Shown here: positions 20,661-64,000 of the stretch, one piece after another | Layout: each line of letters begins with the position of its first letter | Position numbering within the stretch: the first letter of the stretch is position 1 | Origin: Mycobacteriales bacterium | GTDB taxonomy: Bacteria; Actinomycetota; Actinomycetes; JAFAQI01; DASSKL01 | Assembly: GCA_035690485.1 (NCBI GenBank) | Contig: DASSKL010000043.1 | Span: 1-64,000 of the forward strand | Direction: 5' to 3' | DNA: 64,000 nucleotides | Program-made: the position numbers and the translations under genes | Notes under the pieces: model-generated | What the model saw: the letters and a program-made list of their open reading frames with translations, nothing else | The model's database searches: none | What the model was told of the DNA's origin: nothing

Positions 20661-20689
20661 TTGACGGGGTGGGGCGGCGCGCCTACGGT
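20661..20689 (+). promoter_or_regulatory. Promoter of the SOS mutagenesis operon
   Basis: TTGACG (20661-20666) and TACGGT (20684-20689) are 17 bp apart, close to the housekeeping consensus. Transcription should start near 20696, inside the LexA box that follows. Confidence 0.75.
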
Positions 20690-20691
20690 GT

Positions 20692-20707
20692 TCGAACAGA
20701 TGTTCGA
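20692..20707. promoter_or_regulatory. LexA operator (SOS box)
   Basis: TCGAACAGATGTTCGA is a perfect match to the actinobacterial/mycobacterial SOS box TCGAAC-N4-GTTCGA. It begins 3 bp after the -10 hexamer, so bound LexA would block transcription of DUF6504, HEPN and dnaE2. Confidence 0.9.
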
Positions 20708-20723: not shown

Positions 20724-21062
20724 GTGAGCGTTGCGGTGGGGCGGCGTTACGGCGAGCCGGTCGACGTGCGGCGGCGCGACGACGAGCCGGCGGAGTTCCT
20801 GTGGCGTGGCCGGCTCTATCTCGTGCGCGCCGTCCTCGCCCGCTGGTGGGAGGCCGGCGGCTGGTGGCAGGCCGGACCGGCGGAGGCGGCTGTCGGGTCG
20901 GCCGGATCGGGTGGCGCGGCGGGGTTCGCCGGGCCCGACGACCGGGAGCGCGAGGTGTGGCGTGTGGAGGCCGGGGCGGGTTCGGCGGCCGGCACCGGGC
21001 TCTACGACCTGTCCTTCGACTGGGCGGCCGGCGGCTGGACGCTCGCCCGGGTCCTCGACTGA
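20724..21062 (+). CDS. DUF6504 family protein
   Basis: A 112-residue protein of an actinobacterial family recognisable by VRRRDDEPAEFLWRGRLYLVRAVLARWWEAGGWW and the C-terminal LYDLSFDWAAGGWTLARV-type ending. Its function is unknown, but family members sit beside error-prone DNA polymerase genes. The GTG at 20724 has GGGGAGG 5 nt upstream. It is the first gene after the LexA box, 18 bp before the HEPN gene. A 30-residue Gly/Ala-rich insertion separates the conserved halves. A role as an accessory factor of the SOS mutasome is inference from context. Confidence 0.8.
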   Translation: MSVAVGRRYGEPVDVRRRDDEPAEFLWRGRLYLVRAVLARWWEAGGWWQAGPAEAAVGSAGSGGAAGFAGPDDREREVWRVEAGAGSAAGTGLYDLSFDWAAGGWTLARVLD

Positions 21063-21080: not shown

Positions 21081-21458
21081 ATGTCCTCGCTCTCGTTGCT
21101 CGAGCAGGCACGGCTCGGGCTCGCCGACGCCGTCGAGGCGACCGTGCCGATCGACCGCTACGCCGCCGCGCACCTGGCCGCGTTGCGCACGGCGGCGGCG
21201 GTGCTCGCCGCGCGGGCCCGGCCCGACGAGCAGCACGCCCGGCGCCGGCCGACGAGCGCCTGGGTGCTGCTCGCCACGGTGGCTCCCGAGCTGGGGGAGT
21301 GGGCGGCGTTCTTCGCCGCCGGGGCGACCAAGCGCGCCGCGGCCGAGGCGGGCATCCGGCACGCGGTGACCGCTCGCGAGGCCGACGACCTGCTCCGTGA
21401 CGCGACCCGGTTCCTCGCCGTCGTGGAGGATGCGCTCGGCCTGGTGCCCGCCGCGTGA
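21081..21458 (+). CDS. SAV_6107 family HEPN domain protein
   Basis: A 125-residue, mostly helical Ala/Leu-rich protein with the family pattern MSSLSLLEQARLGLADA, an RRRPTSAWVLLATVAPELGEWA core and a C-terminal DDLLRDATRFLAVVEDAL helix. HEPN domains are four-helix bundles, sometimes RNases; the R-x4-6-H motif of nuclease-active HEPN is not evident. GGGAGGTGACC precedes the ATG. It lies between DUF6504 and dnaE2 under one SOS promoter, the place where an ImuA-like factor is found in related cassettes. Its function is unproven. Confidence 0.8.
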   Translation: MSSLSLLEQARLGLADAVEATVPIDRYAAAHLAALRTAAAVLAARARPDEQHARRRPTSAWVLLATVAPELGEWAAFFAAGATKRAAAEAGIRHAVTAREADDLLRDATRFLAVVEDALGLVPAA

Positions 21459-21563
21459 ACGCGGCTCCCAGGCGGCGCCTTGCTGCGTTGTCGGTCGCTC
21501 ACGTGCCCTCCGGGCACGCTTCGCTCCCTTCCGCCTTGCGATGCATCCACCTGGAAGCCGCGT
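21459..21563. repeat. Intercistronic palindrome enclosing a REP-like element and the dnaE2 start
   Basis: Two 14-nt arms, 21459-21472 and 21550-21563, are inverted repeats with one mismatch. Between them is a REP-like core whose GTGCCC-TCC-GGGCAC hairpin matches copies at 26161-26250 and 53081-53167. The 3-prime arm includes the first two bases of the dnaE2 GTG and its weak GGAAG site, so folding in mRNA could hide the start. Confidence 0.6.
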
Positions 21564-24500
21564 GAGCGATCCGTTCGTGCACTTGCACGTGGCGTCGGGC
21601 TACTCCTTGCGGCACGGCGCTTCGCACCCGCACGTGCTGGTCGAGCGGGCCGCCGACCACGGCATGGACGCGCTCGCGCTGACCGATCGCGACGGTGCCT
21701 ACGGCGCAGTCAAGTTCGTCAAGGCATGCGCGGCCGCCGGCATCCGCCCGTTGCTCGGGGTCGATCTCGCGGTGGTCGCGCCCACCGGCCGGGAGGGTGG
21801 TCCGCGGCGACCGCGGCGCAGCCCGGCGCGAGGCGGGGCGTTCGTCGAGCCACCCGACCCGGCCGCACGCCACCGGGTCACGTTCCTCGCCCGGGACGCC
21901 CGTGGCTGGGCCGCGATCTGCCGGCTGATCAGCGCCACCCACCTGGCCGGTGAGCGGGGCCGGCCGGTGACGAGCCCCGAGCTCGTCGCGCGGGCGGTCG
22001 ACGAGTCCGGTGGAGCGGTGTTCGTGCTGCTCGGCCCGCAGTCCGGGCTCGGCCAGGCGCTCGCCCGCCGCCGGCCCGACCTCGCCCGCGCCGAGCTCGC
22101 CCGCTGGCGCGAGGTCGTCGAGCCGGCCGACGTGGTCGTCGAGGTGGTCAGCCACCGTGGGCCGGGCGAGTCCGAGCGGGCGGCCCGGCTGCTGGGGTTC
22201 GCCGCCGAAGCGGGCGCGCCGGCGGTGCTCACCAACGCCGTCCGCTACGCCGACCGCGCCGACGCGCCGACCGCCGACGTGCTCGACGCCGCCCGGCGGC
22301 TGGTCGCTCTCGACCCGCGGCACGTCGACCGGGCCAATGCCGACGGCTACCTCAAGTCCGGCAAGGAGATGGCGGAGGTCGCCGCCGACATCGCCCGGTT
22401 CGCGGGCCTCGACGAGACCGCGGGCCGGCGGTTGCTGGCCCGCACGCGGGCGGTCGCCGAGCGGTGCGCGCTCGACCCGCGGGCCGACCTCGGCATCGGG
22501 CGGGTCCACTTCCCGGAGCTCGACACTGCGACCGCCGACGCCGACGCGGTGCTGCGGGCCCGCTGCGAGGCAGGGTTCGCCCGGCGGGCCATGCCGGCCG
22601 ACGCGGCGGCCCGCCGCCGGCTCGACGACGAGCTCGGGGTCGTCCGTCAGCTCGGCTACCCGGCCTACTTCCTCACCGTCGCCGACGTCGTCGACATCGT
22701 CCGCGGCATGGGCGTGCGCTGCGCCGCCCGTGGCTCCGGTGCCGGCAGCCTGGTCAACTACCTGCTCGGCATCTCCGACGTCGACCCGATGCGCTACGAC
22801 CTGCTCATGGAGCGGTTCCTCTCCCCGCTGCGCGAGGCGCTGCCCGACATCGACCTCGACGTCGAGTCGGCCCGCCGCACCGAGGTCTACGAGGCGATCC
22901 TCGACCGCTACGGCGGCGACCGCTGCACCTGCGTGTCGATGATGGACACCTACCGGGTGCGCCACGCCATCCGCGACGTCGGCGCGGCGCTGGGCCTGCC
23001 GCCCGGCGAGATCGACGCGGTGGCCAAGGCGTTCCCGCACATCCGGGCCGGCCAGGTGCGCGCTGCGCTGCGCGACCTGCCGGAGCTGCGGGCCAGTGGC
23101 CTGGCCGGTCGCGACGGCGACGGCGGCCCGTTCGACCTGCTGTTCCGGCTGGTCGAGCGGCTCGACGGGCTGCCGCGCCACGTGGCGCTGCACCCGTGCG
23201 GTGTGCTGCTGTCCGACCGCACGCTGCTCGACCGCACTCCGGTCGAGGCCAGCTGGCTCGGCTTTCCGATGAGCCAGTTCGACAAGGACGACGTCGAGGA
23301 GCTGGGCCTGCTCAAGCTCGACGTCCTCGGCGTACGCATGCAGTCCTCGATCGCCTACGCCCTCGACGAGATCCGCCGGGTCGACGGCGTCGAGGTCGAC
23401 ATCGACGCGGTCCCGCGGGACGACTCCGAGACGTTCGCGCTGATCCAGTCGACCCGCACGCTCGGCTGCTTCCAGATCGAGTCGCCCGGTCAGCGCGAGC
23501 TCGTCGGCAAGTTCGCGCCCGAGACGTTCGGCGACATCATCATCGACATCTCGCTGTTCCGGCCGGGGCCGGTCAAGAGCGACATGGTCACGCCGTTCCT
23601 CGAGGCCCGGCAGGGCTGGCGCCCCGCGTCCTACCTGCACGACGACCTGCGGCCGTTCCTCGCCGAGACCGGCGGCGTCGTCGTCTTCCACGAGCAGGTG
23701 CTGCAGATCATCGCCACGCTGACCGGCTGCTCGCTCGCCGAGGCCGACGAGGTGCGCCGCGCGCTCGGCGACCCCGACGGCCAGCCGGAGGCGCAGGCGT
23801 GGTTCATCCCCACCGCGCTCGCGCACGGCTACGACGGCGCCACCGTGGAGCGGGCGTGGGAGGTGCTGCGGGCGTTCGCGTCGTTCGGTTTCTGCAAGGC
23901 GCACGCCGCGGCGTTCGCGGTGCCGACCTACCAGTCGGCGTGGCTGAAGGCGCACCATCCAGCGGCGTTCCTCGCCGGTGTCCTCACCCACGACCCCGGC
24001 ATGTATCCCAAGCGGCTGATCCTCGACGACGCCCGCCAGTTCGGCCTCACCGTGCTACCGCTCGACGTCAACCGCTCCGACTCCGGTTATCGCGTCGAGA
24101 AGCTCTCCGTCTACGACGAACCGCCGCCCGGCATCCTCGACCAACCACCGCGACCGGCCGCCGGCTACGGCATCCGGCTGGGGCTCGCCGACGTCCGCGG
24201 CATCACCGACGCCGAGGTCGCCCGCATCCTCGCCGGCCGGCCGTTCGCCACGCTGTCCGACTTCTGGCACCGGGCGGCGGTCTCCCGCCCGGTGGTCGAG
24301 CGGCTCGTCGTCGCCGGCGCATTCGACGCGATCTACGGGCTCGACTCGACGATCCCCCTACGCCGCCGCGGCCGCGTCACCCGCCGCGACCTGCTGCTCC
24401 AGGCGGCTGAGCTCGCGTCGCAGACGCCGGGCCGCCGCCGCAGCGGCTTCGCGACGAAGCCGCCGGCCGACCGGGGTAGCGATGACGTGCGGGAGCGGGC

Positions 24501-25275
24501 CAAGAGCCAGTCGCAGGCCGCCAAGCCGGTGGGGGCGGTCGACGTGCAGCTCGCGTTCGACCTCGAGGAGATCGGCTCGGCGCCCGCAGCCGGGCTGCCG
24601 GAGATGACCCTGCTCGACCGGGTGCAGGCCGAGCTCGACGTGCTCGGCCTCGACGCGACCGCCCACGTCCTCGCCGGCTACGAGCCGTTCCTCGCCGCGC
24701 TCGGTGTCACGCGAGCCCGCGACCTGCTCGGCTGCCGGAGCCAGGCCGAGGTGCTCGTTGCCGGGGTGAAGGTCGCGACGCAGACCCCGCCGGTGCGGTC
24801 CGGCCGCCGCGTGGTGTTCGTGACCCTCGACGACGCGACCGGCCCGGTCGACGCGACGTTCTTCGAGGACGCCCAGGCCGGGCACGCCGCGACGCTGTTC
24901 CACTCCTGGCTGCTCGTCATCCGCGGGCTCGTGCGACGCACCGGCCCGCGCGGGATCTCGCTCAACGCCCTCGCCTGCTGGGAGCTGACCGGGCTGCGGG
25001 CCGCGTGGGAGTCCGGGGGCATGGTCGCGGTCGACGAGCTGATGCGCCGGCCCGGTGTGCTCACCGAGGAGACCCGCGAGGCGGCGGTCCACGGAGCGGC
25101 CGGCAGCCGGTCGACCCGGCCCGTGATGACCGGCGTCCCCGTGCGCTCCTTTGCCAGCGGGTTCCAGCTCTCGCCCTACGCCGACATCCGCCCGGCCGGC
25201 CCCGGCATCGGCCGCGGCCGCGGCACCCCGCCGCGCAAGCTGTGGCACGCCAGCCCGGGAAGTTCCGGTCCATGA
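21562..25275 (+). CDS. dnaE2: Second DNA polymerase III alpha subunit, DnaE2-type error-prone polymerase
   Basis: A 1237-residue C-family polymerase. The N-terminal PHP domain (FVHLHVASGYSLRHG) has lost the usual His in its second motif, which reads TDRDGAYGA, so metal-dependent proofreading is doubtful. The polymerase core has GSGAGSLVNYLLG, the catalytic PDIDLDVESARR and FGFCKAHAAAFAVPTYQSAWLKAHHP, then HhH and OB-fold parts (VLVAGVKVATQTPPVRSGRRV). It is induced with DUF6504 and HEPN from a LexA-controlled promoter, fitting translesion synthesis. GTG at 21562 is preceded by a weak GGAAG. A basic, variable stretch near residue 950 interrupts the core. The replicative DnaE1 is at 61494. Confidence 0.88.
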   Translation: MSDPFVHLHVASGYSLRHGASHPHVLVERAADHGMDALALTDRDGAYGAVKFVKACAAAGIRPLLGVDLAVVAPTGREGGPRRPRRSPARGGAFVEPPDPAARHRVTFLARDARGWAAICRLISATHLAGERGRPVTSPELVARAVDESGGAVFVLLGPQSGLGQALARRRPDLARAELARWREVVEPADVVVEVVSHRGPGESERAARLLGFAAEAGAPAVLTNAVRYADRADAPTADVLDAARRLVALDPRHVDRANADGYLKSGKEMAEVAADIARFAGLDETAGRRLLARTRAVAERCALDPRADLGIGRVHFPELDTATADADAVLRARCEAGFARRAMPADAAARRRLDDELGVVRQLGYPAYFLTVADVVDIVRGMGVRCAARGSGAGSLVNYLLGISDVDPMRYDLLMERFLSPLREALPDIDLDVESARRTEVYEAILDRYGGDRCTCVSMMDTYRVRHAIRDVGAALGLPPGEIDAVAKAFPHIRAGQVRAALRDLPELRASGLAGRDGDGGPFDLLFRLVERLDGLPRHVALHPCGVLLSDRTLLDRTPVEASWLGFPMSQFDKDDVEELGLLKLDVLGVRMQSSIAYALDEIRRVDGVEVDIDAVPRDDSETFALIQSTRTLGCFQIESPGQRELVGKFAPETFGDIIIDISLFRPGPVKSDMVTPFLEARQGWRPASYLHDDLRPFLAETGGVVVFHEQVLQIIATLTGCSLAEADEVRRALGDPDGQPEAQAWFIPTALAHGYDGATVERAWEVLRAFASFGFCKAHAAAFAVPTYQSAWLKAHHPAAFLAGVLTHDPGMYPKRLILDDARQFGLTVLPLDVNRSDSGYRVEKLSVYDEPPPGILDQPPRPAAGYGIRLGLADVRGITDAEVARILAGRPFATLSDFWHRAAVSRPVVERLVVAGAFDAIYGLDSTIPLRRRGRVTRRDLLLQAAELASQTPGRRRSGFATKPPADRGSDDVRERAKSQSQAAKPVGAVDVQLAFDLEEIGSAPAAGLPEMTLLDRVQAELDVLGLDATAHVLAGYEPFLAALGVTRARDLLGCRSQAEVLVAGVKVATQTPPVRSGRRVVFVTLDDATGPVDATFFEDAQAGHAATLFHSWLLVIRGLVRRTGPRGISLNALACWELTGLRAAWESGGMVAVDELMRRPGVLTEETREAAVHGAAGSRSTRPVMTGVPVRSFASGFQLSPYADIRPAGPGIGRGRGTPPRKLWHASPGSSGP

Positions 25276-25387: not shown

Positions 25388-26152
25388 ATGCCGGACAGGG
25401 TGCGTTCCCGCGCCTTCCTGCGTACCGCCGTGGTTCGCGAGCTGCTGCGCACGGCGTTCGTCGAGCTCGGCCAACGCGCCGGCGGCGACGGCACCGGCCG
25501 CCTCGACGTCCTCGACGCGGGTGGCGGCACCGGCGGGTTCGCGGTGCCGTTGGCCGAGCTCGGCCACACGGTCACCGTTGTCGACCCGAGCCCCGACTCG
25601 CTCGCCGCGCTCGAGCGCCGGGCCGCCGAGTCCGGCGTCTCCCACCTCGTGCGCGGCCTGCAGGGCGACGCCGCAGGCATCCTCGACGTCGTACCCTCCG
25701 CCAACTACGACGCGGTGCTTTGCCACAGCGTCCTCGAGGTCGTCGACGACCCACTGCTCGCACTCACCACGCTGGCGGGGGCGCTGCGCCCGCACGGGGT
25801 CATCAGCATCCTCGCCGCCAACCGCGCCGCCGCCGTCCTCGCCCGCGCGGTCGCCGGCCGCATCGACGAGGCCGCCGCCCTGTACGCCGACCCCGCCGGC
25901 CGCGCCGGTCCCGGCGATCCGCTCGTCCGCCGGTTCACCCTCGACCAGCTGCTCTCGCTGGTCGCCACTGCGGGCCTGCACCCGGACCGGGTGCACGGCA
26001 TCCGGGTGTTCAGCGACCTCGTGCCCGGCGGGCTGCTCGACGACGACCCCGATGCCGCGGAACGGTTGGCGCGGCTGGAGGAGCAGGTCGCCGAGATCCC
26101 CGTCTACCGCGACGTGGCCACGCAGTTCCATGTCCTTGCCCACCCGCACTGA
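25388..26152 (+). CDS. Class I SAM-dependent methyltransferase
   Basis: A 254-residue methyltransferase with the SAM loop VLDAGGGTGGFAVPLAELG (motif I), VTVVDPSPDSLAAL (motif II acidic residue) and YDAVLCHSVLEVV (motif post-II). The C-terminal half resembles the CmoA/SmtA-like group of small-molecule or tRNA methyltransferases, but the substrate is not identifiable. The gene lies alone between dnaE2 and dinB with its own leaderless-type promoter. It ends 9 nt before the REP-like element at 26161. Confidence 0.8.
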   Translation: MPDRVRSRAFLRTAVVRELLRTAFVELGQRAGGDGTGRLDVLDAGGGTGGFAVPLAELGHTVTVVDPSPDSLAALERRAAESGVSHLVRGLQGDAAGILDVVPSANYDAVLCHSVLEVVDDPLLALTTLAGALRPHGVISILAANRAAAVLARAVAGRIDEAAALYADPAGRAGPGDPLVRRFTLDQLLSLVATAGLHPDRVHGIRVFSDLVPGGLLDDDPDAAERLARLEEQVAEIPVYRDVATQFHVLAHPH

Positions 26153-26160
26153 CCGGGCGT

Positions 26161-26250
26161 CCCTGACGCGTCGCCTCGCGGCGTTCTCGTCGCCTTGTGT
26201 GCCCTCCGGGCACACGGCGGCTCCTGCGGCCTTGCGAGGCTCGGTCAGGG
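26161..26250. repeat. REP-like palindromic element
   Basis: A 90-bp imperfect palindrome: outer arms CCCTGAC/GTCAGGG, inner CCTCGC/GCGAGG, and a central GTGTGCCC-TCC-GGGCACAC hairpin (26197-26215). The same sequence occurs at 53081-53167 and in altered form at 21475-21540. It lies between the methyltransferase and dinB and may act as a terminator or mRNA end. Confidence 0.75.
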
Positions 26251-26326: not shown

Positions 26327-27589
26327 GTGAGCCGCAACCAGCTTCGGCGTTCTGCGGCGCCAGCGGTCCAGGGTCGAGCCCTCGACGACACCGGGGCGCA
26401 CGTCCTGCACGTCGACATGGATGCGTTCTACGCCAGCGTCGAGATCCGCCGGCAGCCCGAGCTGCGTGGCCGCCCGGTCATCGTCGGCGGCCTCGGCTCG
26501 CGAGCGGTCGTGCTGTCGGCCACCTACGAGGCGCGGGCCAGCGGTGTGCACAGCGCGATGCCGATGAGCCGGGCCCGTCGCCTGTGCCCCCAGGCGACGG
26601 TGATCCCGCCCGACCACGCCGCCTACGCCGCGACGAGCGCCGGGGTCATGGAGATCTTCCGCTCGGTCACGCCGCTGGTGGAGCCGATCGCGCTGGACGA
26701 GGCGTTCCTCGACGTCGCCGGCGCCGTCCGGCGGCTCGGGTCCCCACTCCACATCGGCGAGCTGATCCGCGCCCGGGTCGCCGACGAGCAGGGCATCACC
26801 TGCTCGGTGGGGGTGGCGAGCACCAAGTTCGTCGCCAAGCTCGCCACCACCCAGGCAAAGCCCGACGGCCTGCTGGTCGTGCCGCCCGACGACGTCGTCT
26901 CGTTCCTGCACCCGCTGCCGGTCGCGGCCCTGTGGGGTGTGGGGGAGCGCACCGAAGAGGTCCTGGCCCGGCTCGGCCTGCGCACGATCGGCGACATCGC
27001 CCACACGCCGGTGGCGACGTTGCAGCGGGCCCTCGGCGCCGCGGTCGGCACGCACCTCGCCGCACTCGCGTGGGGCCGCGACGAACGCCGGGTCGTGCCG
27101 CACGAGCCCGACAAGAGCATCGGTGCGGAGGAGACCTTCCCGCGCGACGTTGACGATCCCGAGGTCGTGCTGCGGGAGCTGCTGCGGCTCGCCGAGCGCA
27201 CCGCCGCCCGGCTGCGCTCTGCCGGGCAGGTCTCCCGCACGGTCAGCATCAAGGTGAGGTTCGCCGACTTCTCGACCATCACCCGGTCGCGCACCGTCCC
27301 GATCCCCACCGACGTCGCGCGCGACATCTACGACACTGCCCGCGGCCTCTACCTCGCGCTCGGGCTCGAACGCGCCCGCATCCGGTTGGTCGGCGTACGC
27401 GCCGAGGGCCTCGCCGATGCCGACGCGACGCCCCGCCAGCTGCTGCTCGACGAGCGCCCCGCCGGTTGGCGCGAGGCCGAGCTCGCCGTCGACCGGGCCT
27501 CGCGCCGGTTCGGCGCCGGCGCGGTGCGACCCGCGACTCTCGTCGAGGCTCCCGAGGGTGAGCCTCCGTCGACCGGTTCCGGGTCGTGA
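26327..27589 (+). CDS. dinB: DNA polymerase IV
   Basis: A 420-residue Y-family polymerase for translesion synthesis. The catalytic site is complete: HVDMDAFYASVE with the steric-gate region, SATYEARASGV, and LDEAFLDV with the two acidic residues. The HhH and little-finger parts follow (VSIKVRFADFSTITRSRTV). No obvious C-terminal clamp-binding peptide is visible after the RRFGAGAVRP segment. The GTG at 26327 is the most upstream start before family homology but lacks a good ribosome binding site; the next in-frame starts would cut the N-terminal tail only. No LexA box is seen upstream, where a half REP element lies instead. Confidence 0.88.
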   Translation: MSRNQLRRSAAPAVQGRALDDTGAHVLHVDMDAFYASVEIRRQPELRGRPVIVGGLGSRAVVLSATYEARASGVHSAMPMSRARRLCPQATVIPPDHAAYAATSAGVMEIFRSVTPLVEPIALDEAFLDVAGAVRRLGSPLHIGELIRARVADEQGITCSVGVASTKFVAKLATTQAKPDGLLVVPPDDVVSFLHPLPVAALWGVGERTEEVLARLGLRTIGDIAHTPVATLQRALGAAVGTHLAALAWGRDERRVVPHEPDKSIGAEETFPRDVDDPEVVLRELLRLAERTAARLRSAGQVSRTVSIKVRFADFSTITRSRTVPIPTDVARDIYDTARGLYLALGLERARIRLVGVRAEGLADADATPRQLLLDERPAGWREAELAVDRASRRFGAGAVRPATLVEAPEGEPPSTGSGS

Positions 27590-53080: not shown

Positions 53081-53167
53081 CCTGACCTTCGCCTGGCTGC
53101 GTTCTCGTCGCCTTGCGTGCCCTCCGGGCACGCGGCGGCTCCTGCGGCCTTGCCATGCTCGGTCAGG
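53081..53167. repeat. REP-like palindromic element
   Basis: Third good copy of the element seen at 26161-26250: outer arms CCTGAC/GTCAGG and a central GCGTGCCC-TCC-GGGCACGC hairpin (53115-53133). A partial second right half follows (about 53180-53215). It lies between two convergent genes and could serve as a bidirectional terminator. Confidence 0.7.
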
Positions 53168-61493: not shown

Positions 61494-64000
61494 ATGTCGG
61501 GCACGGAGTTCGTGCACCTGCACGTGCACACCGAGTACTCCATGCTCGACGGCGCCGCCCGGCTCAAGGACCTCTTCGCCGAGGCCGCCCGCATGGGCAT
61601 GCCGGCCCTCGCGATGACCGACCACGGCAACGTCTTCGGCGCCTACGACTTCTACAAGCAGGCCACCGCGGCGGGGGTCAAACCGATCATCGGCATGGAG
61701 GGCTACCTCGCGCCGGGCAGCCGCTTCGACCGGCGGCGGGTCGCGGTCGGCGGGGCGACCTCCGACGACAACCCCGGCGAGATGTACACCCACATGACCC
61801 TGCTGGCCGAGAACCAGCAGGGGCTGCACAACCTCTTCCGGCTGTCGAGCCTGGCCAGCCTCGAGGGCTACTACTACAAGCCCCGCATGGACCGCGAGCT
61901 GCTCGCCGCGCACGGCGGCGGCATCATCGCGACGACCGGCTGCCCGTCCGGCGAGGTCAACAGGCTGCTGCAGCGCGGCGCCTACGACCAGGCCCGGGCC
62001 GCGGCCGCCGACTACCGCGACATCTTCGGCCGCGGCAACTTCTTCTGCGAGCTGATGGACCACGGCATCGACATCGAGCGCCGCCACCGCGACGACCTGA
62101 TCCGCCTCGCCAAGGACCTCGAGCTGCCGTTCGTCGCCACCAACGACCTGCACTACACCTACCCGCAGGACTCCGAGGCCCACGAGGTCCTGCTCTGCGT
62201 GCAGACCGGCAAGACGCTCGCCGACCCGACGCGCTTCCGGTTCGACGCCCGCGACTTCTACCTGAAGAGCGCCGACGAGATGCGCACGCTGTGGCGTGAC
62301 TTCCCCGAGGCCTGCGACAACACCTTGCTCATCGCCGAGCGGGTCGACGTGCACTTCGACGAGGGCGCCGACCTCATGCCGCAGTTCCCGGTGCCGTCGG
62401 GGGAGACCGAGGACTCGTGGCTGCGCCAGGAGGTCGCCCGCGGGCTGGCGCGGCGCTACCCCGGCGGGGTCCCCGACGACCGGCGCGCCCAGGCCGACTA
62501 CGAGCTCGACGTCATCGTGCAGATGGGCTTCCCCGGCTACTTCCTCGTCGTCGCCGACCTGGTCCGCTACGCCCACGACAACGGCATCCGGGTCGGGCCG
62601 GGCCGCGGCAGCGCAGCCGGGTCGCTGGTCGCCTACGCGCTCGGCATCACCGAGCTCGACCCGATCGAGCACAAGCTGCTGTTCGAGCGGTTCCTCAACC
62701 CCGAGCGCGTCTCCATGCCCGACATCGACATGGACTTCGACGAGCGCCGGCGCGCCGACATGATCCGCTACGCGACGGAGAAGTACGGCGAGGAGCGGGT
62801 CGCGCAGATCATCACCTACGGCACGATCAAGGCCAAGCAGGCGATCAAGGACTCCGCCCGGGTGCTCGGCTACCCCTACGCCGTCGGCGAGCGGCTGACC
62901 AAGGTGATGCCGCCGCCGGTGATGGGCAAGGACCTGCCGCTCGCGGCCATCTTCGACTCCGCGCACCCGCGCTACAACGAGGCGGGCGAGTTCCGCTCCC
63001 TCTACGAGAGCGACCCCGACGCCAAGCGCGTCGTCGACACCGCTCGCGGGCTCGAGGGGCTCAAGCGGCAGTGGGGCGTGCACGCCGCCGGCGTCATCCT
63101 CTCCCGCGAGCCGCTGATCGACGTCATCCCGATCCAGCGCCGCGAGCAGGACGGCGCGATCATCACGCAGTTCGACATGGGCGCCTGCGAGTCGCTCGGC
63201 CTGCTCAAGATGGACTTCCTCGGCCTGCGCAACCTCACCGTGCTCGACGACTGCCTGGCCAACGTCAAGGCCAACCGCGGCATCGAGCTGCGCCTCGAGG
63301 ATCTCGCCCTCGACGACCGCCCCACCTACGAGCTGCTCTCGCGGGGCGACACGCTCGGCGTCTTCCAGTTCGACGGCGGGCCGATGCGCGCGCTGCTGCG
63401 CTCGATGAACCCCGACTCGTTCGACGACATCTCCGCCGTGGGCGCGCTCTACCGGCCTGGCCCGATGGCGGCCAACGCGCACAACGACTACGCCGACCGC
63501 AAGACCGGACGCAAGCCTGTCGTGCCCATCCACCGCGAGCTGGCCGAGCCGCTCGCCGAGATCCTGGGGGAGACCTACGGCCTGATCGTCTACCAGGAGC
63601 AGGTCATGGCGATCGTGCAGAAGGTCGCCGGTTACTCGCTGGGGGCCGCCGACCTGCTGCGCAAGGCGATGGGCAAGAAGAAGAAGGAGATCCTCGACAA
63701 GGAGTACGTCCCGTTCCGCGACGGCATGCGCGCCAACGGCTACAGCGACGACGCCATCAAGACGCTCTGGGACATCCTCGTCCCGTTCTCCGACTACGCC
63801 TTCAACAAGGCCCACTCCGCGGCCTACGGCCTGGTGTCCTACTGGACCGCCTACCTCAAGGCCAACTTCCCGGCCGAGTACATGGCGGCCCTGCTCACCA
63901 GCATCAAGGACGACAAGGACAAGTCCGCGCTCTACCTCAACGAGTGCCGACGCATGGGCATCAAGGTGCTGCCGCCCGACGTCAACGACTCCGACTCCGA
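61494..64000 (+). CDS. dnaE: Replicative DNA polymerase III alpha subunit, N-terminal 835 residues
   Basis: The replicative DnaE1, cut at the window end. The PHP domain is intact ([28 protein letters not shown]), unlike that of the DnaE2 at 21562, so it should retain proofreading. The polymerase core has [20 protein letters not shown], catalytic [41 protein letters not shown] and [20 protein letters not shown]. The ATG at 61494 has AAGGAGG about 8 nt upstream. The 161-bp gap before it contains no promoter I can support. Confidence 0.95.

Follow-up and report, generated by a model that had tools for sequence, protein, structure and literature searches.

Both small genes of the three-gene operon whose promoter begins at position 20,661 of the window (the whole 64-kb stretch of DNA analysed here) are, with the polymerase gene behind them, very probably under LexA control, a reading strongly supported by conservation of the SOS box across relatives. 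The pairing of a DnaE2B polymerase with a lone ImuB-C domain, represented here by DUF6504, is already known; the second gene encodes HEPN_SAV_6107, a probable damage-response gene, undescribed as such, which we assign to the SOS response with good confidence.

Direct reading of the sequence places TTGACG at 20661-20666 and TACGGT at 20684-20689, separated by a 17-bp spacer; the dinucleotide GT then leads into an exact LexA-type box that ends 16 bp upstream of the GTG start of DUF6504:

20661..20689, plus strand: sigma-70-type promoter TTGACG-N17-TACGGT, read from the sequence, an arrangement that recurs in DUF6504-led relatives
20692..20707, unstranded: exact LexA (SOS) box TCGAACAGATGTTCGA directly 3' of the -10, from the sequence, the genome scan and relatives

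The promoter and exact box thus lie at the bases given in the initial annotation; TACGGT agrees with a -10 only at TA...T. Given the promoter geometry, transcription would be expected to start inside the box, the usual layout for LexA repression. The PafBC-type motif is TTGTCRGTG-N8-TANNNT, and a scan with the motif in this form found no match within three mismatches at the window promoter.

The box at 20692-20707 is the single exact match in the 64-kb window; at up to two mismatches the window holds 8 matches against 2.1 expected, and therefore only the exact match is informative there. The 3.13-Mb assembly contains 5 exact boxes, where a first-order Markov model predicts 0.15, and 22 boxes at up to one mismatch against 6 for a reversed control pattern. 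Exact boxes lie at lexA, two DUF222 genes, one HNH-like gene and the DUF6504 operon, and a one-mismatch box, GCGAACATCTGTTCGA, lies about 143 bp upstream of the region matching recA; together, these sites appear to outline a small, coherent SOS regulon.

The lexA region carries three boxes, one exact and two with one mismatch, between lexA and a divergent LysM-domain gene (L010, 2037-2711, on contig C19 of the same genome); SOS division inhibitors adjoin lexA in other actinobacteria, and this layout resembles theirs. The further exact boxes are at L011 2499, L012 1097 and L013 2485 (contigs C30, C52 and C80 of this genome). Two are directly 5' of DUF222 genes, one of these with an HNH match, and the gene that carries the remaining box at its 5' end matches HNH only weakly; SOS-boxed 13E12 repeat genes exist in mycobacteria, and the boxed DUF222/HNH genes recall them.

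Among about 80 loci with DUF6504, HEPN or both, drawn from numerous families across the class and phylum, 61 are led by DUF6504; of these, 56 have an upstream box with no more than one mismatch, which is exact in 48. Over all scanned loci 71 of 79 were boxed at this threshold, against a background elsewhere in the same DNA of 0.006 per region of equal length. A TTGAC...TAnnnT promoter adjoins the box in 39 of 56 DUF6504-led relatives, compared with 0 of 56 in one random shuffle. The inner four bases of the box and its distance from the gene differ among relatives, which argues that its conservation is not merely a matter of close kinship. Support for SOS membership comes from conservation of this footprint, and is not the direct evidence that had been claimed.

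Downstream of the box, the three genes run in one direction, as the initial annotation had it:

20724..21062, plus strand: DUF6504, probable stand-alone ImuB-C domain, 112 aa (PF20114, E 2.7e-16)
21081..21458, plus strand: HEPN_SAV_6107 protein, 125 aa (PF18726, E 9.1e-37)
21461..21544, unstranded: REP-like 84-bp palindromic intergenic repeat (core GTGCCCTCCGGGCAC; 9 genome copies)
21562..25275, plus strand: probable DnaE2B-type error-prone polymerase, 1237 aa, GTG start (profile matches, tree)
24547..24564, plus strand: clamp-binding-like motif QLAFDL within the polymerase (position kept in relatives)
25234..25269, plus strand: C-terminal RKLWHASPGSSG motif of the polymerase (37/47 window-type polymerases versus 0/27 DnaE2A)
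25388..26152, plus strand: class I methyltransferase gene, frequent at this locus in relatives (locus comparison)
26369..27589, plus strand: DinB (Pol IV), start codon approximate (profile match)

The GTG at 20724, preceded by GGGGAGG, is most likely the DUF6504 start; a longer reading frame from a TTG codon was discarded, as it would cross the promoter. The short gaps reported between the genes apply to DUF6504 and HEPN (18 nt) and not to HEPN and dnaE2, which are 103 nt apart with most of the interval occupied by the palindromic repeat. This repeat, whose further window copies lie at 26168-26240 and 53090-53158, is missing from the operons of relatives, where HEPN and dnaE2 mostly lie -7 to +20 nt apart and nearly touch; in the window it may limit or weaken read-through from the promoter into dnaE2. 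Locus comparison gave no evidence that the methyltransferase belongs to the mutasome.

We consider it highly probable that DUF6504 is an ImuB-C domain. Above its curated cut-off, PF20114 hits residues 429-504 of an ImuB encoded on a Sinorhizobium plasmid, and its hits to two further alphaproteobacterial ImuBs score below that cut-off. Profile comparison matched actinobacterial DUF6504 to the ImuB-C profile (E 2.7e-10) and ImuB-C to the C-termini of actinobacterial ImuB (E 1.4e-6); the direct match of DUF6504 to the actinobacterial ImuB profile is weak (E 0.049), and the identity leans on the proteobacterial link. The predicted structure is all-beta, no PDB relative of the model was found in a fold search that gave only weak viral matches, and PDB sequence searches with DUF6504 and HEPN returned nothing useful; ImuB-C has itself been described as all-beta without PDB relatives (PMC12926913). 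Given the PF20114 match at the ImuB C-terminus and the profile matches, we reject the reading of DUF6504 as an orphan of unknown role. The earlier statement to that effect is wrong, and the partnership of ImuB-C with this DnaE2 type is already published, though under another name than DUF6504 (PMC12926913); the name DUF6504 itself was not found in open-licence full-text literature.

Against the NCBIfam model for error-prone polymerases (cut-off 939), the window protein reaches 668 bits and mycobacterial and order-mate DnaE2s about 1440-1600 bits. In a quick tree, full SH-aLRT support separates the main window-type clade from the one that holds DnaE2A together with the proteobacterial DnaE2s, and several DUF6504-associated polymerases of other classes fall outside this main clade. 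Most window-type DnaE2s carry a QLxLxL-like motif (QLALDL and variants) at one position, a motif mostly missing from DnaE2A, and 37 of 47 have the C-terminus LWHxSPGS, while 26 of the 27 of the other type end in SRDF or a variant. The subthreshold score, separate clade, C-terminus RKLWHASPGSSG and motif rule out an ordinary ImuC/DnaE2A and point to a DnaE2B polymerase distinct from mycobacterial DnaE2A, a label assigned by matching features rather than by placement in the published DnaE2B tree. Five loci of genus g3 (L344-L348) have window-type DnaE2s with LWHxSPGS ends and no QLxLxL match, an adjoining Y-family gene and no DUF6504; there the Y-family partner may have taken over the clamp motif.

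Genomic context separates the two polymerase types. An ImuB-like gene adjoins dnaE2 in nearly all fetched DnaE2A loci outside f4; these genes have an ImuB-C-like end, several with QLPLW-like clamp motifs before it. DnaE2A occurs in 7 of 120 genomes with DUF6504 versus 126 of 177 without (raw genome counts, shared ancestry included), and the two are almost mutually exclusive. The window genome, in an assembly that is 97% complete, has DinB as its only Y-family gene, with an intact active site and a RecA-NT-like tail; we found no second Y-family gene in it, hence no ImuB, and one RecA-family match. The same contig also carries the gene for the replicative polymerase DnaE1, some 36 kb downstream of DnaE2B, at 61500-64000 of the window and on to position 65006 of contig C43. 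One locus of another genome (L149, genome G418) has an exact box followed by a shortened, weakly scoring DUF6504 and HEPN, with no DnaE2B at the locus and DnaE2A elsewhere in the genome, and looks like a mutasome replacement caught mid-course.

Actinobacterial systems that pair DnaE2B with a lone ImuB-C were described in 2026, as DnaE2B-[ImuB-C] and DnaE2B-[ImuB-C]-PolY-RecA systems in Arthrobacter alpinus and Tessaracoccus lapidicaptus (PMC12926913). Like the former, the window has a DnaE2 of a non-canonical clade, a lone ImuB-C and no ImuB found; like the latter, it has an active PolY (DinB) with a RecA-NT-like tail nearby, and by gene content the operon and tailed DinB would fit the DnaE2B-[ImuB-C]-PolY-RecA arrangement. 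HEPN, present in the window operon, is absent from the main text of that paper, and a LexA footprint such as we found is not given for those systems in the accessible part of it (PMC12926913). The ImuA'-ImuB-DnaE2 (DnaE2A) mutasome of Mycobacterium shares with the window a LexA box, a DnaE2-type polymerase and an ImuB-C domain; however, its DnaE2 is of the other clade and ends in SRDF[HR], whereas the window polymerase ends in RKLWHASPGSSG, and its ImuB-C is fused to an inactive Y-family scaffold bearing the clamp motif, whereas that of the window stands alone. A system whose operon includes lexA and an inactive PolY (ImuY) also has an SOS-controlled stand-alone ImuB-C with DnaE2, but unlike the window operon it has no HEPN gene.

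The HEPN_SAV_6107 model is all-alpha (pLDDT 93) and its closest solved folds include the HEPN proteins 1wol, 2hsb and 3o10, with probabilities of 0.99-1.00 though E-values above 0.1; the protein is predicted to have the HEPN helical fold. Its SOS link is stronger than the initial annotation claimed, because HEPN keeps the box where no DUF6504 precedes it; by the same token, the role in mutagenesis proposed there is only one candidate. Among 56 HEPN loci without DUF6504 in front, pooled from two scans, 34 have an exact box and 43 a box with at most one mismatch (43 of 49 when seven genus g3 loci, taken as Streptomyces, are removed); DUF6504 lies at another place in some of these genomes (f79), and DnaE2B may follow HEPN in some (f90). 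At this locus in the window genome's order-mates (f68), neither DUF6504 nor DnaE2B was found, and the box is followed by HEPN and DinB, often with the methyltransferase between them. Named HEPN loci, mostly from Streptomyces, served as a negative control for the box scan and gave one exact box among 80, from a Nanopelagicales genome. Almost all Streptomyces HEPN genes are without a good box, and SOS control therefore does not extend to every HEPN gene, in agreement with the lack of a HEPN entry in the accessible part of the S. venezuelae LexA table (PMC9380542).

HEPN presence is independent of DnaE2A in the genome (raw genome counts, shared ancestry included), and boxed HEPN is often found in genomes that use DnaE2A. 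This independence and its own box elsewhere rule out a strictly DnaE2-linked HEPN; its role could therefore belong to another part of the damage response. A search of open-licence full text turned up no publication linking HEPN_SAV_6107 to the SOS response; older LexA regulon lists may carry the gene under a locus tag. One lead is Corynebacterium glutamicum cg2381, a ciprofloxacin-induced member of the LexA regulon (PMC5055667); the genome has a PF18726 match and cg2381 is close to mraZ (cg2378), as HEPN is at locus L165, making it a candidate homologue on those two grounds.

Two sets of observations pull on the role of HEPN. That the gene is nearly fused to dnaE2B among relatives speaks for an accessory role; the box it keeps in other settings, and its occurrence regardless of DnaE2 type, speak instead for a broader part in the SOS response. 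We tentatively propose that HEPN is a small helical protein, induced by SOS, that would serve the damage response in an accessory or regulatory capacity with either DnaE2 type. Somewhat less likely, HEPN could be an SOS effector apart from mutagenesis, such as an RNA-cleaving or cell-cycle brake, that merely shares the DnaE2B operon. RX4-6H is the catalytic motif of HEPN RNase toxins, and in helix 2, 165 of 176 relatives conserve an R-x4-H string; together with the boxed HEPN loci that lack a preceding DUF6504 or lie in DnaE2A genomes, this speaks for an effector, against which stands the near-fusion of HEPN to dnaE2 in most relatives having both. A 2013 survey also scored the SAV_6107 family, described as actinobacterial, as lacking the HEPN RNase motif (PMC3710099). 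That HEPN is a passenger, an old neighbour under an SOS promoter with no damage-response role, is improbable: it does sit in an old chromosomal neighbourhood (near DUF3040 in the window genome, near mraZ-mraW in L165) and is kept without a good box in some lineages, but in many others the box still precedes it after DUF6504 and DnaE2B have gone. Induction chiefly through PafBC, a RecA-independent pathway presented in the accessible part of PMC8151990 as a second global damage pathway of mycobacteria, is very improbable and was rejected, with a LexA box that is exact and conserved and no PafBC-type motif at the promoter.

We therefore favour a LexA-repressed SOS operon of ImuB-C, HEPN and DnaE2B, and consider the following scheme, with its contacts, likely. 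LexA bound at the box just downstream would block the promoter; on DNA damage, RecA filaments would provoke LexA self-cleavage and lift repression, and the co-transcribed operon would yield the stand-alone ImuB-C, the HEPN protein and the polymerase. By analogy with the modelled docking of the ImuB C-terminal barrel on DnaE2A, ImuB-C would dock DnaE2B. From its motif and position we infer that DnaE2B contacts the sliding clamp through its own QLAFDL, because no ImuB scaffold that could provide a clamp motif was found in the genome, and the downstream DinB may bring in RecA via its RecA-NT-like tail.

DnaE2 mutasomes drive damage-induced mutation, and the link from DUF6504 to ImuB-C would place many 'unknown' actinobacterial proteins in mutasome biology. 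HEPN with its own SOS box across many actinobacterial families, those with the other mutasome included, poses a well-defined question about the SOS response. It is possible, though we think it rather unlikely, that HEPN_SAV_6107 is a core SOS effector of Actinomycetes that has so far gone unrecognised and works in damaged cells whatever the mutasome type, for instance on RNA, on RecA or on cell division; if so, the two mutasome types would come and go around HEPN.
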